DNA of 64,000 bases, from the NCBI GenBank assembly GCA_017445925.1, contig JAFSRW010000076.1, positions 1-64,000 on the forward strand. The letters are read 5' to 3'. The position numbers and the translations under genes were made by a program. The notes below the pieces were generated by a model. It made no database searches and was not told the DNA's origin. It saw nothing but the letters and a program-made list of their open reading frames with translations. Numbering within the stretch: the stretch's first letter is position 1; every line of letters begins with the position of its first letter. This stretch comes from Bacteroidaceae bacterium. Its GTDB lineage: Bacteria > Bacteroidota > Bacteroidia > Bacteroidales > Bacteroidaceae. Below are positions 3,698-55,509 of this stretch, piece after piece.

Positions 3698-3725
3698 TTT
3701 GGCTATTGGCCATTGGCCTTTGGCT
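3698..3725 (+). repeat. Heptanucleotide array (TTTGGCT/ATTGGCC)
   Basis: Four exact 7-base units, TTTGGCT and ATTGGCC words in the order A-B-B-A, in the gap between the methyltransferase and acyltransferase genes. The same word family returns at 53837-53892. Confidence 0.85.
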
Positions 3726-3742
3726 ATAAGACTCTTAAACGG

Positions 3743-3763
3743 TAAACAGTAAACAGTAAACAA
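3743..3763 (+). repeat. Heptanucleotide array (TAAACAG)
   Basis: Two TAAACAG units and one TAAACAA. The last base is the A of the acyltransferase start codon. Confidence 0.75.
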
Positions 3764-4635
3764 TGAAAGAAAGGGAGTGGGCAGGTACTACATACGGTAA
3801 TGCGTGGATGCATAAATGGCTGATACGCTTGCTGAGGTATACGGATGTTAGAATTCTGTATGCCTTCACCTCCGTATTCGTTATTCCCGTCTGCCTACTG
3901 ATAAACCCCAGCGCTGGCATTACCTATCGGTTCTATAGGAATCGGATGGGATTCGGTCGACTTAAATCAGCCCTCAAAACCTACCAGAACCACTGTCTGT
4001 TTGGGCAGGTGGTGATAGATAAGTTTGCCATGTATGCAGGCAAGAAATTCCGGATAGAAATAGAGGGATTGGAACATTATCAGGAACTTACCACTAGGGA
4101 AGAAAGCTTTATCCAACTGAGTTCCCACATGGGCAATTACGAGATTGCAGGCTATACACTTCCGCAGGATAAGAAAACGCTGAATGCCCTGGTATTCTTT
4201 GGCGAAAAAGAATCTGTGATGACCAACAGAGCCCGACTCTTTTCCGGCACCAATATAAAGATGATACCCATCAGACCTGATATGGGGCATCTGTTTGAGA
4301 TAGATCAGGCATTACAGCGCGGAGAAACTGTAAGTATGCCTGCCGACCGCATTTTTGGTTCTCAGAAGAAACTGCAAATGCCCTTTTTGGGACAAGTGGC
4401 CAACTTCCCTTATGGCCCCTTCAGCATAGCTACCATGAGAGGGCTACAAGTGCTGGCTGTTCATGTGATGAAGGAGAAGAGCCGTACCTATAAGATATAT
4501 GCTACTCCTCTGCTATACAACCTGGAAGCCCCTCGCCAAGAGCAAATAAAGGAGCTGGCCGAGAAATATGTAACTGAATTAGAAAGGATGGTAAACCTCT
4601 ACCCTACCCAATGGTATAACTACTTTGAATTTTGA
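3763..4635 (+). CDS. LpxL/HtrB-like lysophospholipid acyltransferase of the APE-type cluster
   Basis: A 290-residue protein of the lauroyl/myristoyl acyltransferase fold. The catalytic HX4E motif is HMGNYE (His122, Glu127). The N-terminus has a hydrophobic segment (about 28-50) consistent with inner-membrane association. APE clusters usually encode such an acyltransferase, thought to attach the polyene chain to a lipid or glycolipid anchor. It follows a C-rich hairpin and two heptad arrays. The last residues (YFEF) are encoded by TTTGAA words that continue as an array after the stop. Confidence 0.85.
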   Translation: MKEREWAGTTYGNAWMHKWLIRLLRYTDVRILYAFTSVFVIPVCLLINPSAGITYRFYRNRMGFGRLKSALKTYQNHCLFGQVVIDKFAMYAGKKFRIEIEGLEHYQELTTREESFIQLSSHMGNYEIAGYTLPQDKKTLNALVFFGEKESVMTNRARLFSGTNIKMIPIRPDMGHLFEIDQALQRGETVSMPADRIFGSQKKLQMPFLGQVANFPYGPFSIATMRGLQVLAVHVMKEKSRTYKIYATPLLYNLEAPRQEQIKELAEKYVTELERMVNLYPTQWYNYFEF

Positions 4636-4640
4636 AACAG

Positions 4641-4665
4641 AACCCCTAGCCCCCTTTAGGGGGAA
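4641..4665 (+). repeat. C-rich hairpin repeat, copy 2
   Basis: Slightly diverged copy of the element at 3667, starting 5 bases after the acyltransferase stop codon. Confidence 0.8.
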
Positions 4666-4673
4666 TGAGAATC

Positions 4674-4701
4674 GAATTTTGAATTTTGAATTTTGAATTA
4701 T
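4674..4701 (+). repeat. Heptanucleotide array (GAATTTT)
   Basis: Three perfect GAATTTT units and one GAATTAT, ending just before the start of the dehydratase gene at 4707. Confidence 0.85.
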
Positions 4702-5153: not shown

Positions 5154-5180
5154 GACCCCCTAACCCCTTTTAGGGGGAAT
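5154..5180 (+). repeat. C-rich hairpin repeat, copy 3
   Basis: Copy of the element at 3667, abutting the stop codon of the dehydratase gene and running straight into the next heptad array. Confidence 0.8.
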
Positions 5181-5208
5181 GAAGAGTGAAGAATGAAGAG
5201 CGAAGAAT
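5181..5208 (+). repeat. Heptanucleotide array (GAAGAGT/GAAGAAT)
   Basis: Four 7-base units, the last overlapping the ATG at 5207. If translation began at the upstream GTG at 5186, the array would encode the first seven residues of the ketosynthase. Confidence 0.85.
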
Positions 5209-7081
5209 GGCAACAATAATAGCAGATAATATCATATCACCATTGGGTAATACTACCCAAGCCAATTACCAGGCAGTAAAAGCTGGTAAGTCTGCTTTGT
5301 GCCAATATGATCCTGAATTAGGAATTAAGAGAGAAGAATTAGGAATTAATGTGCCTTTCCCTTTCACCGCTTCGTTATTCACACAGGAACAAATAAATGA
5401 AATCTCCATTGACGGATATACTCTGTTTGAAAGTTTGGCCATCAACTCCATCAGAAAAGCGTTGGAGGAATGCCAGATTCCTATCAACGAACGGACTTGC
5501 CTTGTGATTAGCTCCACCAAACTGGGAGGTGTTCAAGGAGTTCAAAGGGTTCAAGGAGTTCAAGAGGTTCAAGGAGTTCAAAGGGTTCAAAGCGTTCAAG
5601 AGATTGCACATGCCGTTGGAATCACCACTACTCCAATTATAGTCTGCAATGCCTGCATCTCTGGCGTATCTGCGTTGATATTAGGAACCCGTCTGATAGA
5701 AATGCAACAGTACGACTATGTTATTGTATGCGGCATTGACGTGCAGAGCACCTTCATCATCTCTGGGTTCCAATCGTTAAAGGCTCTTTCCGAAACACCT
5801 TGTCGCCCCTTCGATATAGACAGGACAGGGCTTAATCTGGGGGAGGCTGCTGCTACAGTAATCCTGAGCAAGGATGAGAAAGCTGGCAGTTGGCACATCA
5901 CAAATGCTGCCATCCGGAACGATGCATTTCATATCAGCAGCCCTTCACCCAAAGCCGACGGATGCCTGATGGCCATAGAAACAGCCATGAAAGGACAGAA
6001 CGCCACAGAACTGGCCCTCGTCAATGCTCACGGAACAGCTACATTGTATAACGACCAAATGGAAGCGCGTGGCCTCAGCAGAGCTGGACTTGCCGACATC
6101 CCTACCAATGCCCTAAAGGGTTATTATGGGCACACCATGGGAGCTGCTGGCATACTGGAAACCATCATTACCATTCACAGCCTTGACGACCACACCATCA
6201 TAGGAACCAAGGGATATAACGAGTTGGGAGTAAGCGGCAACATTAACATTGTCAAAGAGAATACTCCAATACGAGAGGTTCAAGGAGTTCAAGAGGTTCA
6301 AGGGGTTCAAAAGGTTCAAGGAGTTCAAAAGACGGATTTCCTGAAGATTATCTCGGGCTTTGGTGGTTGCAATGCAGCAATTTATGTGAGCAAAAAAGGA
6401 CCTACACCCAAGTCTTCCTGTGAAAGGAGGTGGAAAACTTCTCACAGCATTGTTATTACGCCACAGAAGGTTGTCTTAGATAATGAAATTATAGTTACCC
6501 ATGAGGTTCTCCCAATTAAGGAGGAACGAAAAGAGGAGATGCTAACCTTTCTTTATAAAACAAGAATAAACAATTACCCCAAGTTCTATAAAATGGATGC
6601 GCTGGCTCGCCTTGGCTTTATTGCAACGGAACTATTGTTACAGAAAGAGAGAGAGACAGAAGGCGAACTGAACCGACAAGACAGAGCCGTTATCTTCTTC
6701 AACCAGTCGTCCTCGGAACATGCCGACAAAGTATTTCTCTCCTCTATTTCAGACCCAGAGAACTTTTTCCCCTCTCCATCGGCATTTGTCTATACCTTGC
6801 CCAACATAGTAAACGGCGAGATAGCTATCCGAAATAATTATCGTGGTGAGACCGCGTTCTACATTCTACCCAAGAAAGATGATGACATCATAAGAATGAT
6901 AACACAAGCCACCTTGTTAGATGGATACCACAAAAGTATCATAACCGGTTGGTTGGAATACAAAAGCGAGAGCGATTTCCTTGCCGAATTGACCATAGTT
7001 ATAGGTTATAGGTTAGAGAATAAACAAAAAACAAAAATAAAAACTATTGTGCCCGACGATTCTGTCGTCGGGATACGGTAA
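5207..7081 (+). CDS. Beta-ketoacyl synthase with C-terminal extra domain (APE elongation)
   Basis: The ATG at 5207 is preferred because MATIIADNIISPLG is the normal family N-terminus; the longer reading from GTG 5186 only adds array-encoded residues. The 624-residue product has a ketosynthase domain with an intact triad: Cys150 (NACISG), His275 (NAHGTA) and His309 (YYGHTMG). A further 200 residues resemble a degenerate ketosynthase N-terminal domain. The gene carries a heptad array at 5315-5349, two nonamer arrays at 5531-5602 and 6278-6331 encoding VQG/VQR-type repeats, another heptad run at 6994-7021, and a perfect hairpin encoding its last residues. It should extend the polyene on the ACP, perhaps with the ketosynthase at 7427. 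Confidence 0.9.
   Translation: MATIIADNIISPLGNTTQANYQAVKAGKSALCQYDPELGIKREELGINVPFPFTASLFTQEQINEISIDGYTLFESLAINSIRKALEECQIPINERTCLVISSTKLGGVQGVQRVQGVQEVQGVQRVQSVQEIAHAVGITTTPIIVCNACISGVSALILGTRLIEMQQYDYVIVCGIDVQSTFIISGFQSLKALSETPCRPFDIDRTGLNLGEAAATVILSKDEKAGSWHITNAAIRNDAFHISSPSPKADGCLMAIETAMKGQNATELALVNAHGTATLYNDQMEARGLSRAGLADIPTNALKGYYGHTMGAAGILETIITIHSLDDHTIIGTKGYNELGVSGNINIVKENTPIREVQGVQEVQGVQKVQGVQKTDFLKIISGFGGCNAAIYVSKKGPTPKSSCERRWKTSHSIVITPQKVVLDNEIIVTHEVLPIKEERKEEMLTFLYKTRINNYPKFYKMDALARLGFIATELLLQKERETEGELNRQDRAVIFFNQSSSEHADKVFLSSISDPENFFPSPSAFVYTLPNIVNGEIAIRNNYRGETAFYILPKKDDDIIRMITQATLLDGYHKSIITGWLEYKSESDFLAELTIVIGYRLENKQKTKIKTIVPDDSVVGIR
5315..5349 (+). repeat. In-frame heptanucleotide array (GAATTAG/GAATTAA)
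   Basis: Five 7-base units inside the first ketosynthase gene, encoding PELGIKR and EELGINV one after the other. Unit order is A-B-C-A-B. Confidence 0.85.
5531..5602 (+). repeat. In-frame nonanucleotide array, block 1 (GTTCAAGGA type)
   Basis: Eight 9-base units GTTCAA plus GGA, AGG, GAG or AGC. They encode a Val-Gln-X tripeptide run between the N-terminal ketosynthase lobe and the active-site cysteine. Confidence 0.95.
6278..6331 (+). repeat. In-frame nonanucleotide array, block 2 (GTTCAAGGA type)
   Basis: Six 9-base units of the same GTTCAA family, 675 bases after block 1 in the same gene, encoding another Val-Gln-X run near the end of the ketosynthase fold. Confidence 0.95.
6994..7021 (+). 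repeat. Short heptanucleotide array (ATAGGTT)
   Basis: CATAGTT, two ATAGGTT, then a degenerate unit, in frame near the 3' end of the first ketosynthase gene. Confidence 0.6.
7052..7072 (+). repeat. Perfect 8-bp hairpin inside ketosynthase 3' end
   Basis: CCCGACGA and TCGTCGGG around a five-base loop. It encodes the final PDDSVVG residues and is followed at once by TAAACAG-like words, so the protein C-terminus looks repeat-derived. Confidence 0.75.
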
Positions 7082-7099: not shown

Positions 7100-7360
7100 A
7101 TGAACGAACTGATTTTAGAACTGAAAGAAGAAATAATTAAAGTACTTAATCTGGAGGATATAACCCCTGAGGATATTGACCCCAAGGCCCCATTATTTGG
7201 AGCTGGTGGATTGGGATTAGATTCCATTGATGCGCTGGAATTGATTGTTCTGTTAGAGAAACGCTACGGCATTCGTCTGGCAAGTGCTGCTGAGGGAAAA
7301 ACTATCTTTACCAGCGTAGAGAACATTTCAAAATATGTGAGTGAAAATAGAAAACGATAA
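7100..7360 (+). CDS. Acyl carrier protein 1 of the APE-type cluster
   Basis: An 86-residue acidic four-helix carrier protein. The phosphopantetheine site is GLGLDSIDAL with Ser42. It would carry the growing polyene between the ketosynthases at 5207 and 7427, the ketoreductase and the two hotdog dehydratases. A second carrier lies at 15302. The last Arg codon and the stop lie in a hexanucleotide CGTTAA array. Confidence 0.92.
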   Translation: MNELILELKEEIIKVLNLEDITPEDIDPKAPLFGAGGLGLDSIDALELIVLLEKRYGIRLASAAEGKTIFTSVENISKYVSENRKR

Positions 7361-7378
7361 CGTTAACGTTAACGATAA
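7355..7378 (+). repeat. Hexanucleotide array (CGATAA/CGTTAA)
   Basis: Four 6-base units in the order CGATAA, CGTTAA, CGTTAA, CGATAA. The first holds the last codon and the stop of the ACP gene. Confidence 0.8.
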
Positions 7379-7389
7379 CAATTATAAAT

Positions 7390-7429
7390 CTATTAAACTA
7401 TTAAGCTATTAAGCTACTAAACTAATATG
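7390..7429 (+). repeat. Octanucleotide array (CTATTAAA/CTATTAAG)
   Basis: Five 8-base units, the last degenerating into the ATG at 7427 of the second ketosynthase gene. Confidence 0.85.
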
Positions 7430-9106
7430 TCCAGTATTGCCATAACAGGAAGTGGAATCATCTGCGCCATAGGCAACGATAAGCAGCAAGTATGTGAATC
7501 TCTGCTGGCTGAAAAAACAGGCATAGGAGAACTTCGCCATCTGCCTTCGCGCCACAAGGAATTGCCTGTTGGTGAAGTCAAGATGTCTGACACAGAACTC
7601 AAGCAGGCCCTTGGCATCAGTCCTACGGAAGTGTTCAGCAGGACAGCTCTGCTGGGTGCTTACGCTCTTCGGCAGACGTTGGCTGATGCCGGACTTACTC
7701 CCGAATCACTCAAGTGTAAGCGTGTTACACTTATCTCAGGCACTACTGTGGGAGGAACAGAGGAATGCGAACAATACTCCTGTGGCAATAACACAAAAGC
7801 CATTGCAGAACTGACAACGAACAATTCTCAATTTTCAATTTTCAACTGTCAACTGTCAACTATTTCCACCGCCTGTTCATCTGCCCTGAACGCTATCATC
7901 TTGGGTACAAGAATGTTGCTCATGGGTGAAACCGACATAGTCTTAGCTGGTGGTACAGAAGCCCTTTCTGTGTTTCATCTAAACGGATTCAATAGTCTGA
8001 TGATTCTTGACCACCAGGTATGCAGACCGTTTGATGCCACTCGTCAGGGACTCAATCTGGGCGAAGGTGCAGCATATCTAGTATTGGAGCGAACAAACGA
8101 AGCACGTTTGCGTAAGGCCAATATAGAGGCTTATATTGCTGGTTGGGGCAACAGATGTGATGCTTTCCACCAGACAGCTACCTCGGAAAATGGCGAGGGG
8201 GCTTTTCTGGCTATGACGGATGCCATGAAGATGGCAAATCTACATCCAGAAGATATAGATTACATCAATGCTCATGGTACAGGAACACCTGACAACGACA
8301 AGGCTGAAAGCACAGCTCTGCATAGAGTATTTGCAGATGCTCTGCCTCCTGTATCAAGCACTAAGTCGTTAACCGGCCATACTACCTCAGCATCAGGAAG
8401 TATAGAAACAGTAATCTGCCTTATTGCCATGCACAATCGTTTCGTCCCTGGCAATTATGGTTGGAAAAACAAGAGCGCGGAATGCATTACACCATCAGCA
8501 TTCATGCCAAATACAGACCTGCACCACGTTCTGTGCAACTCGTTTGGCTTTGGCGGCAACGATTCCTCGCTGATTCTCTCGGACCATGAATGTCAGAATC
8601 TTTCACCTGTCAACTTTCACCTGTCAACTTTCACCTATACAGAGAGTGAACTCAATGAGGAGGAAGAACTGAAAGCATTGCGAGAGTATATATCGCCCAT
8701 GGAATCACGCAGGATGTGCCAATTGATGAAAGCTGCATTCCTTACTTCCTTGCGTGCGCTGGAGAAAGCTGGTATAAATAAACCCGACGCTATCATCATA
8801 GCCACAGAACACGGAATGTTCGAGAATGGAAAAAAGATATTGGCCACCCTGAACGAACAAGGCGAGGAGGGTATAAGCCCTACCCTATTTATGCAAAGTA
8901 CGCATAACACGTTGGCAGGAGCTTTGGCTATCCATCTGGGTTGTCACGGATATAACATCACCTATTCCCAAGGTGAAGAATCCCTGCAATGGGCCATCCA
9001 AGATGCCAGGCGACTAATCCAGGAAGGAAAGGCCGAGAATGTGTTGGTGGGGCTACATGATGAAATGCCCTTTTACTCAAAAAGTATTATTGTTAAGAAG
9101 ATATGA
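7427..9106 (+). CDS. Beta-ketoacyl synthase fused to PF13723-like ketosynthase domain
   Basis: The 559-residue product starts SSIAITGSGIICAIGNDKQ. The ketosynthase triad is intact: Cys150 (STACSSA), His283 (NAHGTGT) and His318 (LTGHTTS). After about residue 410 comes a second domain, whose FMQSTHNTLAGALAIHLGC is typical of the beta-ketoacyl synthase-like domain (PF13723) that is a separate protein in proteobacterial APE clusters. Two heptad arrays lie in frame: 7825-7859, immediately before the active-site cysteine loop, and 8601-8635, at the junction between the two domains. Its stop overlaps the next start (ATGA). Confidence 0.9.
   Translation: MSSIAITGSGIICAIGNDKQQVCESLLAEKTGIGELRHLPSRHKELPVGEVKMSDTELKQALGISPTEVFSRTALLGAYALRQTLADAGLTPESLKCKRVTLISGTTVGGTEECEQYSCGNNTKAIAELTTNNSQFSIFNCQLSTISTACSSALNAIILGTRMLLMGETDIVLAGGTEALSVFHLNGFNSLMILDHQVCRPFDATRQGLNLGEGAAYLVLERTNEARLRKANIEAYIAGWGNRCDAFHQTATSENGEGAFLAMTDAMKMANLHPEDIDYINAHGTGTPDNDKAESTALHRVFADALPPVSSTKSLTGHTTSASGSIETVICLIAMHNRFVPGNYGWKNKSAECITPSAFMPNTDLHHVLCNSFGFGGNDSSLILSDHECQNLSPVNFHLSTFTYTESELNEEEELKALREYISPMESRRMCQLMKAAFLTSLRALEKAGINKPDAIIIATEHGMFENGKKILATLNEQGEEGISPTLFMQSTHNTLAGALAIHLGCHGYNITYSQGEESLQWAIQDARRLIQEGKAENVLVGLHDEMPFYSKSIIVKKI
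7825..7859 (+). repeat. In-frame heptanucleotide array (TTTTCAA/CTGTCAA)
   Basis: Five exact 7-base units, TTCTCAA, TTTTCAA twice, CTGTCAA twice. They encode a Ser/Gln/Phe/Asn-rich insert ending about four residues before the catalytic cysteine loop of the second ketosynthase. Confidence 0.93.
8601..8635 (+). repeat. In-frame heptanucleotide array (TTTCACC/TGTCAAC)
   Basis: Five units alternating strictly between TTTCACC and TGTCAAC, encoding the linker between the ketosynthase domain and the C-terminal domain. Confidence 0.93.
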
Positions 9107-9459
9107 ATATAAGTCTATTGCCCTTAGCACTCATTCAGAGTGCATTGCTTGCCATGGGACAGGTGATGCTTAAACTGGGACTCCTCCGAATGGAACCCTT
9201 CGGATGGAATCCTACATTCTGGCGTTCCTTCCTACTGAACTGGCCGTTTGCCTTAAGCGGCATCTGCTTTGCTTCTGCCAGCCTGCTATGGATGTATATC
9301 ATCAAAAACTATCCTCTGAGCACAGCATATCCGATGGTAAGCCTAAGTTTTGTGTTTGGTATGATAGCTGCCATGATATTCTTTCACGAACAGGTGGACT
9401 TGTATAAATGGATAGGAGTGCTACTGATAATAGCAGGGTGCTACCTTATATCTAGATAA
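9103..9459 (+). CDS. Small EamA/SMR-like four-helix membrane protein
   Basis: A 118-residue protein with four predicted membrane helices and an SMR/EamA-like C-terminal segment (AYPMVSLSFVFGMIAAMIFF, then a final GVLLIIAGCYLI helix). It overlaps the second ketosynthase gene by four bases, so the two are translationally linked. Half-size DMT-superfamily proteins act as dimeric transporters or flippases. In this cluster it may move an APE lipid precursor, alongside the larger MMPL protein at 12824. The substrate is inferred from context only. Confidence 0.8.
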   Translation: MNISLLPLALIQSALLAMGQVMLKLGLLRMEPFGWNPTFWRSFLLNWPFALSGICFASASLLWMYIIKNYPLSTAYPMVSLSFVFGMIAAMIFFHEQVDLYKWIGVLLIIAGCYLISR

Positions 9460-9461
9460 AT

Positions 9462-9489
9462 GAAGAGTTAAGAATGAAGAGTTAAGAAT
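9462..9489 (+). repeat. Heptanucleotide array (GAAGAGT/TAAGAAT)
   Basis: Four units alternating GAAGAGT and TAAGAAT. The last provides AT of the next start codon at 9488. Confidence 0.9.
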
Positions 9490-10111
9490 GAAGGCGATAA
9501 TATTTCTTGTAATGTTTAATATGTGTGCTGCATTTACTTTGGCGCAAACCAGCACGAAAAACGCCATAGATGAAATAAGCAAGGCCTCTGGAAACATCAG
9601 CACCCTACAAGCTGATTTCACTCAGACAAAGAAGATGAAAATGCTTAGCAATGCTATGACTTCAAAGGGCAAAATGTGGTGTACGCAACCCAACCTTTTG
9701 AGGTGGGAATATCTGACACCCAACACCTCTGCGTTTATACTTAACAATGGCAAAGTATTACTGAAGGGAGGAAAACGTAACCATACCATCAACGTGAACA
9801 GAAACAGAATGCTAAGAGAATTAACTCGTCTGATGATTCCCAACGGACTGGGCAAATGTCTTTCGGAAAAGAAGGATTTCCAGGTGTCTGTAGAAACCAA
9901 AAACAATCAGCACATCCTCACGCTCCTTCCACAAAGCAAAGAACTTAAGCAGATGTTTACCCAGATTATTCTGTACTATGACCATGGACAATCTGTTGTC
10001 ACAAAAGTGGAGATGTGGGAGAAGAATGGCGACAGCACTACCATAGAACTCTCCTCTATCAATATAAACCAAACTATAAACGAATCTGTGTATTCAATAA
10101 ACGAAAAATGA
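9488..10111 (+). CDS. LolA-like outer-membrane lipoprotein carrier of the APE-type cluster
   Basis: A 207-residue periplasmic protein with signal peptide (cleavage near AFTLAQT) and the LolA-type half-barrel pattern: ISTLQADFTQTKKM near 38-51, then a basic strand and KMWCTQPNLLRWEY. APE clusters regularly carry such a LolA homologue, thought to ferry the lipidated pigment through the periplasm. The genome's housekeeping lolA is expected elsewhere. The stop overlaps the next start (ATGA at 10108). Confidence 0.85.
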   Translation: MKAIIFLVMFNMCAAFTLAQTSTKNAIDEISKASGNISTLQADFTQTKKMKMLSNAMTSKGKMWCTQPNLLRWEYLTPNTSAFILNNGKVLLKGGKRNHTINVNRNRMLRELTRLMIPNGLGKCLSEKKDFQVSVETKNNQHILTLLPQSKELKQMFTQIILYYDHGQSVVTKVEMWEKNGDSTTIELSSININQTINESVYSINEK

Positions 10112-11983: not shown

Positions 11984-12824
11984 GATAATTCGGTGGATAT
12001 TGCTCTTCGTCATGGCTATGACAGTAAACAGCATTGCTGCTCAGACAAATATCTGGGAAGGTACAACCTGTGGGAAAAAGGTGGAGATGACTGAATATAT
12101 TGCCCACGGAGGAAGCGATATGGCTATAATTATCTGTCCTGGTGGCAGCTATTTTTGGCACGATATGAAGAATGAGGGCCTTCTGGTAGCAGAATGGCTT
12201 AGGAAGAACGGCATCTCGGCTTTTGTGCTGAAATACCAAACAGCGGGAATACCTGCTTTTGTACTCAGATACAGGTATCTGTTTAGGGGCAAAAGGTATC
12301 CTGATGCCCAGGACGACCTTAGACAGGCACTAAAGATTGTCCGTGATAAAGCAACAGAACTGGGAATAGACCCACAGAAAATAGGTGCAATGGGATTCTC
12401 TGCTGGCGGGCATTTGGCGATGTCATGCGCAGAATTGTTGCCTCGAACAGAAAGACCATCGTTTGTAGCTGCTATTTACCCCGTTGTAACCATGACCGAA
12501 GAGTGTGTACATAAAAGGTCCAGGCGGGCATTGCTGGGAGATAACAAGAAAAACGACAAGGACTTAAGGCAACTGCTTTCCCTGGAACAGAATGTCCCTG
12601 ACGACTGTCCGCCTGTCTTCATGGTTAGCTGCATGGATGACCCTACTGTCCACTATCGTAATTCCCTGCTGCTGGATTCTGCACTATCGCATAAAAACAT
12701 TCCGCATACCTTTATCCAGTATAAAACGGGCGGACATGGTTTTGGCGCTTCTGATGTTAAGGGAACCGCTGAGAGCAGACGTTGGAAGAATGAGTTTATG
12801 AAATGGATTAAGACATTGAACTGA
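11976..12824 (+). CDS. Secreted alpha/beta-hydrolase esterase
   Basis: A 282-residue protein with an N-terminal signal peptide (about 1-23). The alpha/beta-hydrolase elements are the oxyanion loop CPGGSY (55-60), nucleophile elbow GFSAGG with Ser142, an acid candidate in CMDDPTVHY and the catalytic His in GGHGFG. It resembles acetyl-xylan-esterase-like hydrolases of Bacteroidetes, which usually sit in polysaccharide loci. Here it lies inside the lipid/polyene operon, overlapping both neighbours, so deacylation of an APE intermediate is a reasonable guess but unproven. Confidence 0.8.
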   Translation: MCKIIRWILLFVMAMTVNSIAAQTNIWEGTTCGKKVEMTEYIAHGGSDMAIIICPGGSYFWHDMKNEGLLVAEWLRKNGISAFVLKYQTAGIPAFVLRYRYLFRGKRYPDAQDDLRQALKIVRDKATELGIDPQKIGAMGFSAGGHLAMSCAELLPRTERPSFVAAIYPVVTMTEECVHKRSRRALLGDNKKNDKDLRQLLSLEQNVPDDCPPVFMVSCMDDPTVHYRNSLLLDSALSHKNIPHTFIQYKTGGHGFGASDVKGTAESRRWKNEFMKWIKTLN

Positions 12825-44469: not shown

Positions 44470-44477
44470 TAACTTTG
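44470..44477 (+). promoter_or_regulatory. -7 box of the BspA-like gene
   Basis: TAACTTTG, a perfect match. The 5' leader of about 70 bases contains the heptad array at 44493-44527. Confidence 0.6.
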
Positions 44478-44492
44478 TCCACACAATGTTAT

Positions 44493-44527
44493 TCATTGAA
44501 CATTAAACATTCAACATTGAACATTAT
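44493..44527 (+). repeat. Heptanucleotide array in 5' leader (ACATTGA family)
   Basis: Five units TCATTGA, ACATTAA, ACATTCA, ACATTGA, ACATTAT between the promoter and the start of the BspA-like gene. Confidence 0.9.
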
Positions 44528-44550
44528 AATTAATAACAAACAACACTACA

Positions 44551-45532: not shown

Positions 45533-48466
45533 ATGAATGTAAAGGTGTTATTACTGAGTGCATCCTTGTTGCTTCCAGGCATATTGAATGCTCAGGTGGT
45601 GATAAACGAGATTCAGGTGGCAAACGTTGATATGTTTATCGACCCCTCATTCAACTATGGCAGCTGGGTGGAGCTGTATAACTCCACGGAACAGGCCCTC
45701 TCTCTGGCAGGCATGAAACTCCGACATACCAACTCTGAAAACAAGGTAAACGAGCAGCGACTCACAGAGCAGCACGGAATCCTGCCACCTAAGGGGTTCG
45801 TGGTTCTGTGGTTCGACCACAACAGCAAGGATGGCTATTACGGCAAGACGGCAGGACAGCAGATTCCTTTTAAGATGGATGAGGAAGGCGGCCTTGTGGA
45901 ACTGTATAATTCCAGAAACGTGCTGCAGGATGCCGTCACCTATCCGCCAGCCATAACACGCTGCTCCTTTGCCCGTACTGAGGACGGCAGCAGCACATGG
46001 GGTGTAACATCGGTTCCCACTCCCAAGCAAACAAATGCGGGCAGTCCCTTCTCTGACGAACGCCTCTCAATGCCCGAGACCGACCAGAAAGGCGGTGTGT
46101 TCTCTAATCCGCTCTCTTTTCAGGTGAATATCCCAGCAGGAACCACCCTCTATTATACTACAGACGGTGCCACGCCCGTTCCTGGCAAAAGTGCTGTGTC
46201 AGAAACAGGAGTCTTTAATGTATCTGAGACCAGCATCTTCCGCTTCATGCTTGCTCAGGAAGGCTATCTGAACAGTCCCGTAACTACCCGCTCGTTCATC
46301 CGTAAGAATCAGGATTATTACCTGCCCGTATTGAGTGTTACCACACACCCCGACCATCTTTTCGGCGACTCCATAGGTCTGTATGTACAGGGGGTAAACG
46401 GACGCACGGGAAATAACAAGGGAACACCCATGAACCAGAATATGGACTGGGAACGCCCCGTGAATGTGGAGTACTTTGTACCCGATGAGCAGGGCAGATG
46501 GCAGGAGGCATTGAATCAGGGAGCACTATTCAGCATCTTTGGCGGATGGACACGTTTCAATGAAGGGGATGAGACCTTCCAGTACAAACCTTCCTTTAAG
46601 CTGAAGGCCGACAAGATGTGCGAGGGTCTGAATTTTTATACTTACCCCGTCTTTCAGGAGAAACCCTATATTAAGAATAAGACCCTGCTGGTTCGTAATG
46701 GAGGGCAAGACCAGCACGGACGCATCTGGGATGCCGTTATCCAGGAACTGCTCATCAGCAGCGGCATACATCTCGACTGTCAGGCAGCCCAGCCAGCCCA
46801 TATCTTTCTGGACGGACTGCCTCTGGGTATGTTTAACCTGCGCGAAGCCAGCAACCGCCATTACGCTTACAGTAACTACGGTATAGGTAACGATGAGGTG
46901 GACCAGTGGGAGAACGAATTTAACGTTATGTCAGGCAGCGGAACCATCTACAACACATGGCAGACGCTCTGTCAGAAGTTAGGAACCAACCCTACTGACG
47001 AAGCCACCTGGAAGGCAATCTGCAAGATAGTGGATGTGGATGAGTACTGCAACTATATGGCGGCAGAAATCTACATGGGCAACCTCGACTGGCTGCGTGG
47101 TGGACTGAAGAACATTAAGGGCTTCCATTGTAACAAAGACGATGGTAAAATTCACGTTGTGCTTTTCGATTTGGACGGTTGCTTCGGCGATACCGACATG
47201 ATTCAGCAGATATATAAGAAAGGGAGCGGCAAGCAAATAGAAATCTTCAAGAATATGCTCAAGTACGCGCCTTTCCGTCAGCAGTTCATCGATGCCTATT
47301 GCATGATGGGCGGTAGTATATTCCTGCCAGAGCGTTGTGTCCCCTTTATCCGCCAGTGGGAAGCTAATATCACCCCTGCCCTTTCGTGGGAGAATAACGA
47401 ACCTCATACCCGAGCCGACCGACTATGCAATGTACTTACTGACCGCGAAAACCAGCATGAGAAACGTATTGCCAGCCTGAAGAGTCAGTTTAGCCTCTCT
47501 AACGGGATGCATACTGTGATAGAAACCACTTCCCCACTCGCCCGCATCCTACTGAACGGTCAGGAGATTCCCACATCATATTTCTCCGGCACACTCTTCG
47601 AAAAGGCAGAACTAAAGGCTGTGATACCCGAGGGCTACCAATTCATAGGTTGGCAGATAAACGGCAAGACTGTTTCCACCGATACCACGCTGAATGCCAT
47701 GTACTATGCCGCCCTGAACCCGCACATCACGCTGGTTCTGAAACGCACCAGCCAAGTAAGTCCCATCCGTATAAACGAGGTTAGCTCAGCCAATGATATC
47801 TATATCAATGAATATCTGAAGAAAAGCGACTGGATAGAACTCTACAACACTACCGATGCCCCCATCGACCTCACCGGCACCTACCTAAGCGACAACCCCA
47901 ATAACCCCCATAAGTACCAGCTAAATAAAGCTCCCTCTCTAAACTCTCAACTCTCAACTCTAAACTCTACCCCCTCATCTCTAAACTCTCAACTCTCAAC
48001 TCTAAACTCTCATATAATCATCCCTCCCCACGGCTATCGCATAGTATGGTGTGATAATAAAGAGCCCGTCAGCCAGCTTCATGCAGGCTTTAAGTTGGAG
48101 AACGCTGATGAAGCCTACGTCAGCATACATGCCGCAGACGGTTCGTGGGCAGACAGTCTATGGTATCAGGCACAAGGCCGATGGCAAAGCTATGGTCGTT
48201 ATCCCGATGGTTCAGACCAATTGGCATTGTTTGACCGCATTACCATTGGGCAGACCAACCACATCACCACTCAAACCGAGGTTTCTAAGCCAGACTGGGA
48301 AACCAGCGTCAAATCCGTAAGCCTGCCTAAGCACCGCCAGATAGCCTCCATCCAGTACTATAATCTCTCAGGCCAGCGCCTCAGCAGTCCCACAGATGCC
48401 AGCATAGTCATCCGCCGCATTGTGTACGATGATGGTACTGTAGAAAGCCGCAAGATGTTACCTTAG
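45533..48466 (+). CDS. Secreted lamin-tail / CotH-kinase-like surface protein
   Basis: The ATG at 45533 is preferred, since a signal peptide follows directly (cleavage near ILNAQ). The 977-residue product has an N-terminal lamin-tail domain (VVINEIQVAN, about 22-150), a beta-sandwich domain (about 185-260), a CotH-type domain (LVRNGGQDQHGRIWDAVIQE, DLDGCFGDTDM, about 275-620), a second lamin-tail domain (RINEVSSANDIYINEYL), and a tail with YYNLSGQRL. A ten-unit heptad array (47941-48010) lies in frame within the second lamin-tail domain. CotH-type domains are atypical kinases; function here is unknown. Confidence 0.88.
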   Translation: MNVKVLLLSASLLLPGILNAQVVINEIQVANVDMFIDPSFNYGSWVELYNSTEQALSLAGMKLRHTNSENKVNEQRLTEQHGILPPKGFVVLWFDHNSKDGYYGKTAGQQIPFKMDEEGGLVELYNSRNVLQDAVTYPPAITRCSFARTEDGSSTWGVTSVPTPKQTNAGSPFSDERLSMPETDQKGGVFSNPLSFQVNIPAGTTLYYTTDGATPVPGKSAVSETGVFNVSETSIFRFMLAQEGYLNSPVTTRSFIRKNQDYYLPVLSVTTHPDHLFGDSIGLYVQGVNGRTGNNKGTPMNQNMDWERPVNVEYFVPDEQGRWQEALNQGALFSIFGGWTRFNEGDETFQYKPSFKLKADKMCEGLNFYTYPVFQEKPYIKNKTLLVRNGGQDQHGRIWDAVIQELLISSGIHLDCQAAQPAHIFLDGLPLGMFNLREASNRHYAYSNYGIGNDEVDQWENEFNVMSGSGTIYNTWQTLCQKLGTNPTDEATWKAICKIVDVDEYCNYMAAEIYMGNLDWLRGGLKNIKGFHCNKDDGKIHVVLFDLDGCFGDTDMIQQIYKKGSGKQIEIFKNMLKYAPFRQQFIDAYCMMGGSIFLPERCVPFIRQWEANITPALSWENNEPHTRADRLCNVLTDRENQHEKRIASLKSQFSLSNGMHTVIETTSPLARILLNGQEIPTSYFSGTLFEKAELKAVIPEGYQFIGWQINGKTVSTDTTLNAMYYAALNPHITLVLKRTSQVSPIRINEVSSANDIYINEYLKKSDWIELYNTTDAPIDLTGTYLSDNPNNPHKYQLNKAPSLNSQLSTLNSTPSSLNSQLSTLNSHIIIPPHGYRIVWCDNKEPVSQLHAGFKLENADEAYVSIHAADGSWADSLWYQAQGRWQSYGRYPDGSDQLALFDRITIGQTNHITTQTEVSKPDWETSVKSVSLPKHRQIASIQYYNLSGQRLSSPTDASIVIRRIVYDDGTVESRKMLP
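47941..48010 (+). repeat. In-frame heptanucleotide array with duplicated block (AAACTCT/CAACTCT)
   Basis: Ten units. A four-unit block (AAACTCT, CAACTCT twice, AAACTCT) occurs twice, separated by two degenerate units. The 42-base step preserves both the 7-base phase and the reading frame. It encodes a Leu-Asn-Ser-Gln-Leu-Ser-Thr repeat. Confidence 0.96.
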
Positions 48467-50822: not shown

Positions 50823-50952
50823 ACATAATAGGGAAATTCCCCTTTGTAAATAGTGGTTTTCATCTTCTCACATATCCTAAAAAAGGTACATAATAGGGAA
50901 ATTCCCCTTTGTAAATAGTGGTTTTCATCTTCTCACATATCCTAAAAAAGGT
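50823..50952. repeat. Perfect 65-bp tandem duplication
   Basis: Positions 50823-50887 and 50888-50952 are identical. Each copy holds one TAGGGAAATTCCCCTTTG motif. It lies in the divergent gap between the MNT and DKNYY genes, directly abutting the latter's promoter. Confidence 0.98.
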
Positions 50953-50953
50953 A

Positions 50954-50961
50954 TATCTTTG
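50954..50961 (+). promoter_or_regulatory. -7 box of the DKNYY gene
   Basis: TATCTTTG, 33 bases before the start, immediately after the 65-bp duplication. Confidence 0.65.
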
Positions 50962-50994
50962 CAGCATCTTAATAAACCAATTAAATATAATATT

Positions 50995-51609
50995 ATGAAA
51001 CAGACCGCAATTTTACTCAAGTCGTTCTTAGTAGCAACACTGATGGCATTTACATTGTCAGGCAACGCCCAAAGGTATGAGGTTGACCACGGCAGAGTGT
51101 TTTATGGCGAAGAACTGGTTATACACGCCGATGTCCGAAGCTTTGTAGACCTGGGCTTTGGTTACGCTAAAGATAACCATAATGTATATATGAACGGGCG
51201 TGTTCTGGAGAATGTTGATCCTGCCACATTCCGCCTGAAAGAACGTTCTGGCCGTCGGCCCCATGATTATGAGATAGAAGACCGTGGTCCTCACCGTGGC
51301 TATTTCAAGACAACTTTTAACGTCTATTACGGCAATAAGAAGATAGATGCCATGGCCAGCAGCTTCAAGGAGATTGGTAATGGCTATGCCAAAGATTCCT
51401 TTAACGTGTACTATTACGGGGAGAAGATTAAGGGCGCTACTGCCAGTTCGTTCAAGGAACTTGGTGGCGGCTATTCTAAGGACTCCTTCAATGTATATTA
51501 TTATGGCGAGAAGGTAGAGGGCGCCATGGCCTCGTCCTTCAAGTATATTGGCAACGGCTACGGTCAGGATACCTTCGATGCCTATTATCGAGGTCAAAAG
51601 CTAAAATAA
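50995..51609 (+). CDS. Secreted DKNYY-repeat protein
   Basis: The ATG at 50995 gives 204 residues with a signal peptide (cleavage near SGNAQR). The mature part is made of DKNYY-type repeats of about 24 residues: YAKDNHNVYMNG, YAKDSFNVYYYGEKIKGA, YSKDSFNVYYYGEKVEGA and a last YGQDTFDAYYRG. The two central repeats are nearly identical at DNA level too. DKNYY proteins are usually surface-exposed; function is unknown. Its regulation looks unusual because of the 65-bp duplication upstream. Confidence 0.88.
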   Translation: MKQTAILLKSFLVATLMAFTLSGNAQRYEVDHGRVFYGEELVIHADVRSFVDLGFGYAKDNHNVYMNGRVLENVDPATFRLKERSGRRPHDYEIEDRGPHRGYFKTTFNVYYGNKKIDAMASSFKEIGNGYAKDSFNVYYYGEKIKGATASSFKELGGGYSKDSFNVYYYGEKVEGAMASSFKYIGNGYGQDTFDAYYRGQKLK

Positions 51610-52505: not shown

Positions 52506-53819
52506 ATGAAAAGAATTAACCTGATTTTACTCTCAGTTCTTACCCTTTGGCAAATACCTGTGGAGGCTCAGCCTGAAATTAAAAATGTGTCTGGCGTATA
52601 CGTGGGCGGACATATCCGCAGAGAACGTCCCCAAACCATTACTAACCTGCGTAACTCGGGTTTTACATACGCGCTGCTTTTTAACGTGAGCGTGGAAACG
52701 GATGGTACACTTACCACCGATGGTGAGACTATCTGTAAGAACGGTGAATACGTGTTTCAGAAGACTCAGCCCAACTATCAGAAGGATATAAAGAACCTGA
52801 AGACACAGCCAACAAGTATTCAGCGTTTGGAAATAGTTATAGGTGGATGGGGAAACGAGTCGTATAACCGAATAAAAGCCCTTATAAATGCTAATGGAAC
52901 GGGCAAGAATACCATGCTATACAAAAACTTTAAGGCCCTGAAGGAGGCTGTTCCCGAGATAGATGCCGTGAATAACGATGATGAACATTGCTACGATTTG
53001 GAAACGGGAGCCAAGTTCCATATTATGATGTACGATCTGGGTTATAAGACTACATTGGCACCCTACACCAATAGGAGCTACTGGCAGAACCTCTGTACAA
53101 AAATTCGTGCCAGCCGTTCTCAGGCCGTTGACCGTGTAATGGTACAGTGTTATGATGGTGGTGCAGGAAATGTGAATCAGGTGGGCAACTGGAACTTCAC
53201 GGGTGTTTCGGACCGCCATGCAGGACTTATGTACTACTCTAACGACTGGAGCGTGGAGAAGAACATGGCTCAGTTTCAGAAATGGTACGATGATGGTGTA
53301 GCAAAAGGCGGCTTTGTATGGGTGTACAATAGCGAGGAATGGGACCTGAATGCCTGGGCATCGGGTATGAACCGTGTGTTCAAAGCTGTGGTAGTGCCTG
53401 AGGAAGATGCTATGATAGAAGTGTTCAGCGATAAAAACTTTGGCGGCTACAGCGTGAAACTGCCCGTGGGAACGTACACAAAGGCTGACATGGCTGTATA
53501 TGGAATAAAGGCAAACGACATAGAATCCATTAAGATGCTGAAGGAAGGTGCCAGCGCACGCTTGTTCCGTAGTGTTGCCAATACGGGCTCCAGTATGCTA
53601 TGCAAGGTTGACCGTAAAAACATTACCACCACCTACGGTAACGCAGTAAACAGCATTACGGTGATGTACGAAGACCCCGTGGGAATCAACCAAATTGACA
53701 ATGGACAATTGACAATGGATAATTCCTCCGTATATGACCTTAGCGGACGTAAAATAAATTCTCAGTCACCTCGGAAGGGAATTTATATCCAGAACGGGAA
53801 GAAAATAATCGCCAAGTAG
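52506..53819 (+). CDS. Secreted GH18-like protein with beta/gamma-crystallin-like domain
   Basis: A 437-residue protein with a signal peptide (cleavage near VEAQ). Residues about 25-295 form a TIM barrel of GH18 type: GVYVGGHIRRERP at strand 1, LEIVIGGWG at strand 3 and DAVNNDDEHC at strand 4, where the glutamate takes the place of the acid in DxxDxDxE, though the spacing is not canonical. Then comes a beta/gamma-crystallin-like module (VFSDKNFGGYSVKLPVGTYT) and a tail VYDLSGRKI to GIYIQNGKKIIAK, like those of the M64 and GH76 proteins. A heptad array sits exactly between module and tail. Confidence 0.82.
   Translation: MKRINLILLSVLTLWQIPVEAQPEIKNVSGVYVGGHIRRERPQTITNLRNSGFTYALLFNVSVETDGTLTTDGETICKNGEYVFQKTQPNYQKDIKNLKTQPTSIQRLEIVIGGWGNESYNRIKALINANGTGKNTMLYKNFKALKEAVPEIDAVNNDDEHCYDLETGAKFHIMMYDLGYKTTLAPYTNRSYWQNLCTKIRASRSQAVDRVMVQCYDGGAGNVNQVGNWNFTGVSDRHAGLMYYSNDWSVEKNMAQFQKWYDDGVAKGGFVWVYNSEEWDLNAWASGMNRVFKAVVVPEEDAMIEVFSDKNFGGYSVKLPVGTYTKADMAVYGIKANDIESIKMLKEGASARLFRSVANTGSSMLCKVDRKNITTTYGNAVNSITVMYEDPVGINQIDNGQLTMDNSSVYDLSGRKINSQSPRKGIYIQNGKKIIAK
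53693..53727 (+). repeat. In-frame heptanucleotide array before C-terminal tail (AATTGAC/AATGGAC)
   Basis: Five units alternating AATTGAC and AATGGAC, then AATGGAT and AATTCCT. They encode the linker IDNGQLTMDN right before the VYDLSGRK tail of the GH18-like protein. Confidence 0.93.
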
Positions 53820-53836
53820 CTTAATAGGTTGAGAAC

Positions 53837-53892
53837 ATTGGCTATTGGCCTTTGGCCGTTGGCTTCTATAACCTCTAACCTCTAACCTTTCA
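53837..53892 (-). repeat. Heptanucleotide array between convergent genes (ATTGGCC / CCTCTAA)
   Basis: Eight units in phase: four of the TTGGC type as at 3698, one transitional TCTATAA, then CCTCTAA words. It ends at the stop codon of the sulfatase gene. Confidence 0.92.
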
Positions 53893-55464
53893 TTACCGGT
53901 CTGATTCTTTAACGTCATACTGTTTCTGAAGCTTCAGGAGTTCCTTTTGCAAACGTTTCTGGAGCTTTTCTGTACCAGGCTGCCCATAGATATTATGCAT
54001 CTCGCGTGGATCGGTATTAAGATCGTACATCTCCCACTGGTCTATGGCATCAGAAGGATTTTCCTCGGCACAGGGATAGAAGTGGATAAGCTTGTAGCCA
54101 TCGGCTGTACGAACGCCATAATGACGCCTTACGCTATGCTCGGCAGGATACTCGTAATAATGGTAATACAGGCTCTGACGCCAGTTCTTAGGATGCTTTC
54201 CTTCCAACAAAGGCAGCAGGCTGACACCCTGTATATCCTCGGGAATAGGTGCTCCAGCCAACTCCAGGAACGTAGGGGCATAATCGATGTTCTGCACCAT
54301 CTCAGTGATATCACCCTTAGCAACAGGCTTGCCGTACTTGGTGGGCATACGCATAACAAGGGGCGTAGAGAAACTCTCCTCGTACATAAAGCGCTTATCG
54401 AACCATCCGTGCTCACCCATATAGAAGCCTTGGTCGCTGGTATAAACCACAAGGGTGTTCTCTGAAAGACCTGTCTTATCGAGGTAGTCAAGCAGTCGGC
54501 CTACGTTATCGTCGAAGGTCTTTAACACTTTGGCATAGTCGCGCATAAAGCGCTGATACTTATACTCCTTAAGTGCCTGCCCCTTAAGGTTGCGTTTACG
54601 GAAATCAATGGAGAGAGAATCGTAGAACATATCGTATTGGGCACGTTCCTTACTGTTCAGCCGACCAATATATCTCATATAGTCTGGAGTAAGACGTGTG
54701 GGATGAGTGGGGTCATACACCTTACAATCATAATCCATAGTCATGTCCACATCGGATGCTATGGCCATCTCCTGACGCTGGGCAGCCTGACGACCTTCCC
54801 ATTGGTCATCAAAATTCTCGGGAATCTGGAACGTTACATCCTCATACTCACGTAGGTATTTGAGTTCCGGAAGCCAATCGCGATGACAAGCCTTCTGGTG
54901 GAGGAACAGAGCAAAGGGCTTATTGGTTTTCTGCTGGGCATCCAGCCAGGCAATAGCCTTATCGGTAAGGATGTTGGTAAGGTAGCCATTCTCGTCATGA
55001 CGCTTACCATCCATGGTAATGAAGGTGGGATTATAATATTCGCCCTGCCCAGGGATAATCTCGAAGTGGTCGAACCCTGTAGGCGTACTTACCAGGTGCC
55101 ATTTACCTATCAGGCAAGTGCTGTAGCCTGCCTTTTGCAAGAGCTTGGGCATAGTCTGCTGAGAACCATCAAACACGCCATGCTCGTTATTGGTAAAACC
55201 GTTCTTATGGCTGTGCTTGCCCGTTATCATACAGGCACGACTGGGACCGGACAGGGAGTTGGCTACAAAGCTGTTGACAAAACGCACGCCATCATGGGCA
55301 ATACGGTCCAGGTTTGGGGTCTGTACATGGGTCTTATCGTAGCACGACATCATCTGTGCCGTATGGTCATCCGTCATAATATACAGGATGTTGGGGCGTT
55401 GCTGAGCGTGAGCAATTGCAGGAAGAATTCCCAGCATAGAAAAAGGTATAAGCTCTTTTTTCAT
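53893..55464 (-). CDS. Secreted serine-type sulfatase, family S1
   Basis: A 523-residue sulfatase with a signal peptide (cleavage near AHAQ). Metal site NILYIMTDDH; activation motif SGPSR (Ser72 in SxPSR) followed by ACMITGKH; and VYTSDQGFYMGEHGWFDKR for the C-terminal metal ligands. Serine-type sulfatases need conversion to formylglycine by an anaerobic maturase (anSME), which is not in this window. The pattern is close to GlcNAc-6-sulfatases of gut Bacteroides that act on mucin or heparin-like glycans. The start lies 11 bases from a heptad array at the uvrA end. Confidence 0.93.
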   Translation of the reverse strand: MKKELIPFSMLGILPAIAHAQQRPNILYIMTDDHTAQMMSCYDKTHVQTPNLDRIAHDGVRFVNSFVANSLSGPSRACMITGKHSHKNGFTNNEHGVFDGSQQTMPKLLQKAGYSTCLIGKWHLVSTPTGFDHFEIIPGQGEYYNPTFITMDGKRHDENGYLTNILTDKAIAWLDAQQKTNKPFALFLHQKACHRDWLPELKYLREYEDVTFQIPENFDDQWEGRQAAQRQEMAIASDVDMTMDYDCKVYDPTHPTRLTPDYMRYIGRLNSKERAQYDMFYDSLSIDFRKRNLKGQALKEYKYQRFMRDYAKVLKTFDDNVGRLLDYLDKTGLSENTLVVYTSDQGFYMGEHGWFDKRFMYEESFSTPLVMRMPTKYGKPVAKGDITEMVQNIDYAPTFLELAGAPIPEDIQGVSLLPLLEGKHPKNWRQSLYYHYYEYPAEHSVRRHYGVRTADGYKLIHFYPCAEENPSDAIDQWEMYDLNTDPREMHNIYGQPGTEKLQKRLQKELLKLQKQYDVKESDR

Positions 55465-55474
55465 GGTTTTATAA

Positions 55475-55509
55475 TTATGAATTGAGAATTATGAATTATG
55501 AATTATTTT
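55475..55509 (-). repeat. Heptanucleotide array at uvrA 3' end (TTATGAA)
   Basis: Five units on the plus strand: TTATGAA three times, TTGAGAA and TTATTTT. The last residues and stop of UvrA are encoded by it, and it fills the gap to the sulfatase gene. Confidence 0.92.

Follow-up and report, generated by a model that had tools for sequence, protein, structure and literature searches.

Why should a bacterial genome hold to a repeat step of exactly seven bases while the repeated word itself is free to change? The question is raised by a stretch of 64,000 nucleotides from a Bacteroidaceae bacterium (assembly GCA_017445925.1, contig JAFSRW010000076.1), hereafter the window, along which short tandem arrays keep a period of seven although their words differ. 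The window is part of contig C34 (111,792 bases) of an assembly of 3.3 Mb, 100 contigs and 84% completeness, here called the home genome (G000). The nearest named contigs belong to metagenome-assembled genomes (MAGs) of uncultured Bacteroidales and Bacteroidaceae, and the array-bearing organism is most likely a gut bacterium, probably from the rumen. Comparisons with relatives show that the arrays change in whole units and that conservation of their sites is quickly lost. Our leaning, held without great confidence, is that they are probably made and remade in place by slipped-strand misalignment, or by very short unequal exchange, with a slip length that peaks at seven and in DNA that is nearly neutral.

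Arrays were located by matching each base to that seven positions further on (w[i]=w[i+7]; match +1, mismatch -2; score of at least 12), and periods 4–30 were scanned alike. The window holds 16 arrays of period 7, against none in 40 shuffled windows (20 first-order Markov and 20 local triplet shuffles). Its multiples 14 (11 arrays), 21 (5) and 28 (2) follow; periods 9 and 18 occur twice each, 6, 8, 12 and 27 once each, and the rest not at all. Tandem Repeats Finder (TRF) places 17 loci at period 7, 14 or 21, and merging both lists by hand gives about 20 arrays, several of them shorter than four units (Table 1). A first-pass annotation of the sequence had counted at least 18 arrays of four to ten units; apart from those shorter ones its count is borne out, its words and coordinates are correct, the relatives of period 6, 8 and 9 that it placed at 7355, 7390, 5531 and 6278 are present, and the shuffled control that it called for leaves the arrays standing.

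The same dominance extends to the home genome, of which 761 kb (the window and 40 further stretches) were sampled. When primitive periods are counted at a score of at least 14, period 7 accounts for 140 arrays, against 20 for period 6, 17 for 9, 14 for 8 and 11 for 22; periods 4, 5 and 10 are absent and no period other than 7 exceeds 20. At a score of 12 there are 173 period-7 arrays, or 22.7 per 100 kb, from which several hundred per genome can be extrapolated, and many related genomes carry them, with densities per 100 kb of 19.5 in G035, 16.2 in G028, 8.8 in G033 and 7.9 in G032. For comparison, 40 stretches of other Bacteroidota were taken, one per family and each the first 20 kb of one contig; the 36 of at least 4 kb (656 kb; 35 other families and that of the window) contain three period-7 arrays, of which two reach score 14 and come from a single genome, while the third has a score of 12–13. 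G423, a distant genome, has 12 arrays with different words in 80 kb, and its relative G190 a single array of 97 bases in 160 kb. Three exact copies of TGAAGAR match 64 times in the home genome and never in the reversed control, a control that is uninformative for TCAACTNTCAACT, which is the same sequence read backwards. This pattern is patchy within the genus (0 to 64 matches over 13 genomes; present in 6 of 12 congeners), is lacking from 8 genomes of other families, and is found in 16 of 395 genomes across the phylum, the home genome included.

The behaviour of individual arrays is seen in seven orthologous loci, of which L029 matches at 91% over its main block and the others at about 72–93% by block, and in segments of G021 and G025. 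The cleanest case is the spacer orthologous to 15240-15320, where the array block measures 130 bases in L130 (G021) and 53 in L131 (G025), a difference of 77 bases or 11 units, although an adjoining block of 9,483 bases, which takes in the final 61 of the 130 bases in L130, aligns at 93.9% identity with one gap, and a 249-base block on the other flank at 89.6%. In both genomes the part orthologous to 15252-15308 is filled by a TAAACNG array in place of the window's words. L029 is 14 bases, or two units, longer at the array beginning at 42421, and has about two units at 44494 where the window has about five; elsewhere the 44494 site bears an array of CTAAAGT words (L030), two GTGAAAA-type arrays (L032) or none. 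At 40304 the words differ in relatives other than L029. Changes inside genes keep the frame: the U32 peptidase segment of the window is 15 bases longer than in L029, which lacks a clear array, and the ketoacyl synthase segment at 7822-7861, ahead of the active-site motif ISTACSSA, exceeds those of L130 and L131 by 21 bases around a kept NCQ/DCQ codon stretch. The period-9 segment at 5527-5602 is likewise longer than in its ortholog L130, and the array at 6276-6331 is missing from L130 and L131. Of 40 orthologous spacers compared between G000 and G035 (80% flank identity), 6 have an array in both, against 5.6 expected within length strata. It is from these comparisons that we conclude that change proceeds by whole units and that sites are soon lost. 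At two places, L032 5686-5816 and the L033 spacer orthologous to 42398-42431, inserts that by eye have the look of inverted repeats and resemble miniature inverted-repeat transposable elements are placed within heptamer arrays or next to them, flanked on either side by array words.

The position of the arrays relative to genes, as called by a simple purpose-made caller, is in keeping with DNA under little constraint. Over the first 367 kb of the home genome, 71.7% of array bases lie within the 14.6% of sequence that is noncoding; over 761 kb, 89 of 140 arrays (score of at least 14) are mostly noncoding, and 44 of 173 are wholly inside called genes. In the 367 kb, arrays fill 7.1% of convergent spacer, 5.2% of spacer between genes on the plus strand, 2.3% between genes on the minus strand and 1.5% of divergent spacer. 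Upstream of starts their coverage is 2% in the last 10 bases and 6–10% at 10–60 bases, and 80 loci carrying the HTS gene show the same dip (2%, then 4.5–5.9%). In the divergent spacer 44376-44550 the array is downstream of a conserved TATCTTTG-like block, presumably a promoter motif, and thus probably in the 5′ leader. Arrays show no strand preference. Although a stop triplet on one strand or the other occurs in the dominant word of 71 arrays out of 75 (background heptamers, 57.7%) and in 45 of the 54 distinct dominant words of the 173-array sample, the sense strand has more such triplets in 37 arrays and the antisense strand in 32, with 15 ties; a function as a three-frame stop-codon device was dropped for want of sense-strand bias.

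A preference for the step is already visible before an array exists. Outside arrays, runs of at least seven matches number 49 at period 7 against a Markov expectation of 13.2, the largest excess of any period; smaller excesses occur at 6, 8 and 9 (31, 35 and 34 against about 14–16) and also at 12, 14 and 15, and none at 4, 5, 10 or 13. It is this peak at seven in two-copy repeats that makes slipped-strand synthesis the best single explanation. The agent would be DNA polymerase; a length matched to the DNA held by the enzyme is an earlier proposal (Mrazek 2007, as cited in PMC4679880 and PMC4692102). The seed would be a chance short direct repeat with its copies seven bases apart, usually differing by one letter; steps of one or two units would then copy both versions, leaving one variable column and some A-B-A-B order, and repeated rounds of so biased a process could sharpen into the dominance of period 7. 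The tract would be nearly neutral in spacers, would be removed near start codons and probably from promoters, and inside genes would survive when the net change keeps the frame.

The variation between units has the form that such seeds may be expected to leave, their differences being concentrated in one column. Free columns were assessed for fourteen words in three sets by counting three-unit runs with a given column free and not constant. In G000, TTGANAG gives 12 runs against 0 to 1 for each other column (base TTGACAG) and TTGANAA 11 against 0 (base TTGATAA); TTGANCA gives 9 against 0 to 5 in G000 and 11 against 0 in G035, TTAGNGG 19 against 0 to 1 in G035, with all four letters in the free column, and TAAACNG 6 both in G000 (other columns 0 to 1) and in other Prevotellaceae loci (other columns 0). 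TTGAATT, TTTAGAG and TTAGAGG in G000, and words with few matches in the third set, are weaker or mixed. The claim that words change at preferred positions is therefore strongly confirmed, and the passage from one word family to another without loss of phase, also described in the first-pass annotation, is seen at 7822-7861 and 15252-15308. Its A-B-A-B order fares less evenly: A-B-A triples are in clear excess in G035 (55 of 104 against 0.343) and in G032, G033 and G028 (24 of 48 against 0.332), but only weakly so in the home genome (82 of 255, or 0.322, against 0.276; p 0.023), whose first sample of 75 arrays showed no excess. Where present, the excess fits amplification from a two-copy seed, which offers a plain account of the single variable column, though only of part of the pattern. 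In viral contigs the letters of AGTTGA arrays are mixed in 23 of 70 matches for one column, 25 of 69 for a second and 18 of 80 for a third; the AGTTGA preference is absent there and so belongs to the lineage rather than to heptamers in general, and a universal free-column rule is not borne out.

Several observations weigh against slippage in neutral DNA as a full account. In the HTS loci only 46.8% of array bases are noncoding (11% of the sequence), divergent spacers (1.05%) are not poorer in arrays than minus-strand spacers (0.9%), the 21 kb of convergent spacer contain none, and pooling all 80 loci yields no A-B-A excess (41 of 156 triples against 0.266). At least two of the 40 orthologous spacer pairs look inherited (L145/L160 and L149/L166), and neither L130 nor L131 shows a seed at the second period-9 site. 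The number of units, moreover, drops sharply beyond four instead of falling off steadily: complete hexamer units at step 7 in classes of three, four and five number 64, 67 and 7 in G000, 28, 28 and 6 in G035, 12, 17 and 4 in G032, G033 and G028 together, and 28, 29 and 4 in the HTS loci L036-L108, although assembly limits on long arrays qualify this drop. Ten hexamers, hand-picked from the common ones with a TT centre, give 59, 75 and 10, with 10 longer, in G000 and G035 together, beside the counts made on all hexamers. By length the fall in G000 is more even and the three-unit class larger (102, 67 and 18 arrays of 20–26, 27–33 and 34–40 bases), with a local peak at 32 bases (22 of 195). GGG is possible only in GGTTAG, GATTAG and GTTTAG, and only when the free letter is G; the seven hexamers of the ten in which it is impossible make up 119 of the 154 arrays and show the same shape (31, 41, 6 and 13, 18, 3), so that G-quadruplexes cannot be its cause here.

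The vocabulary is a further difficulty. The 173 arrays have 54 dominant words, against 152.5 expected if words were drawn at random from spacer heptamers (the lowest of 1000 draws gave 139), in counts that, like those of the 75-array sample, include linked arrays such as the 101-base repeats of L017. AACATTG, the commonest, dominates 19 arrays, and yet the top words are not abundant as single copies in the 75-array sample; AACATTG itself occurs 45 times outside arrays in that first sample, which is not unusually frequent. Single-letter neighbours join 44 of the 54 words into one network, against a mean of 20.5 and a maximum of 35 in 30 random draws, and the core TTGA is found in 47% of arrays against 7% of background heptamers. 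Words of G000 return in G035 with the same variants, TTGAGCA being present in 5 of 19 and 4 of 8 TTGAACA arrays, respectively. Bias in vocabulary rises with array size in G000, from 0.58 at scores of 12–14 to 0.87 at 25 and over, and is flat in G035 (0.61 to 0.64). The free column, too, recurs at distant sites. Among pairs of arrays that have their majority heptamer in common and lie at least 2 kb apart or on different stretches, closer pairs being left out, it coincides in 113 of 252 in G000 and in 52 of 70 in G035, where chance gives 0.14. Seeds arising independently do not explain why the same hexamers and columns are found at distant sites.

Such recurrence is what would be expected of a sequence-specific factor, a protein or enzyme that reads a small set of hexamers, mostly TT-centred, one free base apart. 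Such a factor, which we consider unlikely, would either copy the hexamers as cassettes with a maximum of about four units or protect them against loss. It would account for six fixed letters and one free letter in the same column at distant sites of two genomes, and for the drop beyond four units in all four sets. G000 and G035 have seven of the commoner hexamers in common (AATTGA, CATTGA, TCTTCA, AATTCA, GATTAG, GTTTAG and GGTTAG), and on one strand TT stands at the centre of 8 of the 11 hexamers with at least four records in G000 and 8 of the 9 with at least two in G035. Relative to a control with the free column moved, TT/AA centres are in excess in four of five sets: 12 of 18 in G035 (control 3.0), 10 of 21 in G032, G033 and G028 (3.8), 17 of 45 in G000 (11.3, p 0.033) and 17 of 47 in the HTS loci L036-L108 (10.6, p 0.01), the fifth, L029-L035 with L130-L132, giving 4 of 9 (2.3, p 0.16). 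The centre is missing, however, from three of the 11 G000 hexamers (AATGTT, TTGGCT and TTTCAA) and one of the nine in G035; as single copies the 12 hexamers tested show no enrichment in spacers (ratios from 0.87 to 1.34), on which ground isolated binding sites were rejected; and the indifference to strand, the lack of retention at orthologous spacers, the loss of the AGTTGA column preference in viral contigs and the failure to find a candidate gene all count against a factor. A wider form of the proposal, in which period 7 is six recognised letters and one free letter, set out in cassettes of up to about four units from a clade-wide and mostly TT-centred vocabulary, and which may extend to the four-unit heptamers with fixed variable positions in Xanthomonas and Nostoc and so to the general heptamer excess of bacteria, strikes us as doubtful. 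A common vocabulary could also be kept within a lineage by copying between sites, through template switching or gene conversion over six or seven shared bases, a rather unlikely course. It would suit the words and free columns held in common by distant sites, the lineage favourites (GGTTAG in 12 G035 records against 2 in G000; AGTTGA in 14 G000 records and in none of the 18 G035 hexamers), the in-phase joining of two lexicon words at 7822-7861, 15252-15308 and L013 12073-12128, and the pair of same-word period-9 arrays about 750 bases apart in one open reading frame (ORF). Against it, pairs sharing at least 20 identical bases number 29 among 75 arrays where unit shuffling gives 33.0, and the flanks of 154 arrays have no common sequence beyond A/T richness.

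These same results dispose of transposition or copying of whole arrays, since unit order is shared no more than after shuffling and there are no common flanks. The first-pass annotation had argued for a copying mechanism and not plain decay of one repeat; the second half of this stands, because differences fall in one column, lengths change by whole units and words are shared far beyond chance, whereas whole-array copying is unsupported, as is the linked reverse transcriptase that it suggested. RVT_1 was not found in G003, G005, G008 and G010 (86–89% complete), which have 33, 13, 33 and 13 matches to one array pattern; G004, G009 and G012 have the domain but no match to either array pattern tested, and it is present as well in G006 (0 and 8 matches), in G011 (1 and 0) and in the home genome (one match), the genomes of the genus in this comparison being 67–89% complete. 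A Pfam scan of 49 of the 93 listed window ORFs gives no reverse transcriptase or DNA polymerase. That the arrays are upstream regulatory elements recognised in DNA or mRNA, as proposed for the TAACTGA repeats of Beggiatoaceae, seems to us improbable: several window arrays stop 0–7 bases from a start codon, and in 10 of the 80 HTS loci an array is found within about 110 bases before the HTS start, but coverage is low over the last 10 bases ahead of starts and, in the home genome, in divergent spacers, arrays occur in both orientations, and most orthologous spacers have other words or no array. A regulator at the start codon was rejected because start-adjacent bases are avoided. Least credible of all, to the point of being negligible, is assembly artefact or chance. 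The home MAG is fragmented (100 contigs), and a number of array matches are situated at the ends of contigs (G000:C52:2-21, G003:C40:7-26, G008:C58:3-22 and G035:C72:1-20), but shuffled sequence has no arrays, the array at 40304-40341 is repeated letter for letter in the separate MAG contig L029, and is thus not the product of one assembly, and the same words are met in many independent MAGs. Artefact as the cause of the arrays' existence is refuted; their lengths could still be affected, as MAG assemblies may shorten or break long arrays, and the matches at contig ends suggest that assemblies seem to break within longer ones and that array length is probably underestimated. Slippage in place, with its step peak at seven, accordingly remains the reading that we prefer.

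Heptamer tandem repeats are of a known kind, and the dense, many-worded form found here is a new variant of it. The STRR (short tandemly repeated repetitive) sequences of filamentous cyanobacteria are tandem heptanucleotides, several words to a genome, and the likeness to them drawn in the first-pass annotation is a fair one, made by description and not by sequence. Three repeated heptanucleotides are mentioned for Calothrix (PMC4692102). Among the long simple sequence repeats (LSSRs) of bacteria, 7 is reported as the commonest long period, scattered over phyla, and polymerase slippage is proposed as its cause (Mrazek 2007 as cited in PMC4679880 and PMC4692102; PMC4060949). Like both kinds, the present arrays consist of head-to-tail seven-base units in numbers above chance, mostly intergenic, varying by whole units and patchy in spread; they differ from LSSRs in their density (about 23 per 100 kb) and in having many words per genome, mostly of one connected vocabulary and often a hexamer plus a free letter. 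The GGGNATC and GGGGA(C/T)T arrays of Xanthomonas and Nostoc are similarly dispersed between genes, with fixed variable positions, are under-represented between divergent genes and have four units as their commonest size, a size that Rehm 2015 links in Xanthomonas to G-quadruplexes (PMC4692102). Here, in contrast, most of the arrays counted for the ten hexamers have words that cannot carry the G-tracts of at least three that mark those heptamers, and the four-unit shape in G-poor words shows that quadruplexes are not needed to explain it; and whereas 90% of the Xanthomonas repeats are between the same genes in two species (PMC4692102), co-occurrence here is at chance.

The first-pass annotation knew of no such repeats described for Bacteroidales. 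This holds for the dense, many-worded variant, of which we found no account in Prevotellaceae or rumen Bacteroidales in a literature search that covered few subscription papers; it does not hold for heptamers as such. For runs of three heptamers the median over-representation class among 34 Bacteroidetes genera is +0.75 (Mrazek and Huang 2014, PMC4060949), and a 2025 survey names Bacteroidota among the phyla with high repeat density (PMC12699852). TAACTGA repeats, reported from Beggiatoaceae, some Cyanobacteria and five Bacteroidetes (MacGregor 2015, PMC4679880), are likewise intergenic, patchy and near gene boundaries, but they are a system of one word, with near neighbours rarely repeated and the majority just upstream of starts, unlike the many words, both orientations and avoided start-adjacent bases seen here. 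TAACTGA doublets are absent from 761 kb of G000 and 400 kb of G035, and TAACTGA is not a dominant word of G000. The dominance of heptamers among longer bacterial tandem repeats has been an open question at least since the 2007 survey cited by PMC4679880 and PMC4692102, and this lineage could help to explain why seven is favoured: with several hundred fast-turning arrays per genome and many relatives, the step length, seed, free letter and size limit are directly measurable. The arrays rewrite spacers, and sometimes coding segments, between related gut species, which matters for intergenic comparison and for assembly.

Table 1. Arrays of the window in order of position; N is the free letter. 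TRF, located by Tandem Repeats Finder.
Positions	Strand	Array	Setting
3699-3762		two arrays, TTGGCTA/TTGGCCA then TAAACNG	spacer 3677-3762; reaches ATG of ORF 3763-4635
4674-4699		GAATTTT, 3.7 units	7 bases 5′ of ATG at 4707
5177-5209		TGAAGA+N	spacer and start of ORF 5186-7081
5527-5602	+	period 9, GTTCAA + 3 letters	ketoacyl-synthase-like ORF
6276-6331	+	second period 9, same word family	same ketoacyl-synthase-like ORF
6998-7037		GTTATAG	close to end of ORF 5186-7081
7353-7424		period 6 (AACGAT/AACGTT) then period 8 (TATTAAGC)	ends two bases before ATG 7427
7822-7861	+	heptamer; on other strand AGTTGA+N then AATTGA+N, in phase	ketoacyl synthase ORF
8600-8636	+	14-base unit (CTTTCACCTGTCAA)	between two synthase domains
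9459-9493		AATGAAGAGTTAAG	stop (9459) through start (9488)
14401-14433	+	CTGTCAA	MMPL ORF 12824-15277
15252-15308		AGTGAAG passing in phase to TGTGAAT/TATGAAT	
34460-34491		AGTTGA+N	near 3′ end of ORF 34411-36570
34523-34551		TCATTCT, imperfect	TRF
38092-38140	-	AACATTG, 7 units	U32 peptidase ORF
40304-40341		AATTAAG/AGTGAAG	spacer 5′ of homoserine O-succinyltransferase
42421-42452		AACTCTA/AACGCTA	end of ABC-F ORF
44494-44525		CATTGAA	divergent spacer
47937-48012	+	CTCTAAA/CTCTCAA, 10.9 units	CotH-LTD ORF
53693-53723	+	AATTGAC/AATGGAC	near end of ORF 52506-53819
53837-53888		TTGGCTA-type words (by eye, under scan threshold), then TAACCTC	convergent spacer 53820-53892
55469-55506		TTATGAA	between sulfatase and uvrA

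Period-6 arrays appear to be almost a single dispersed family and not general microsatellites, as AACGAT is the dominant word in 14 of the 20 in the 761 kb and AACGTT in 3; 19 of the 20 are noncoding (for example in L009, L017 and L140-L143). Words similar to the GTTCAA+NNN of the two period-9 arrays in ORF 5186-7081 occur elsewhere in G021, G022 and G025.

At Rfam gathering thresholds only tRNA is found over the window. The hairpin CCCCCTAACCCCCTTTAGGGGG and its variants stand at or just after three successive stops (3667-3691, 4648-4668 and 5155-5178), and in each case a heptamer array comes next, ahead of a start codon. Close copies of the first hairpin are scattered through G021 and G024, and G021 also has close copies of the third complete with its array. 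A perfect 65-base tandem duplication at 50823-50953 precedes the DKNYY-family ORF 50959-51609, which itself holds an 87-base repeat at 51364-51560. Tandem repeats of period 22, with palindromic cores and operator-like in appearance, spaced about two helical turns apart, are formed by TGGCTCGAGCCA in the home genome (L139 13529-13780, L140 10796-10852 and L146 9833-12755) and by CCGCACGCGG in G028 (L192-L195).

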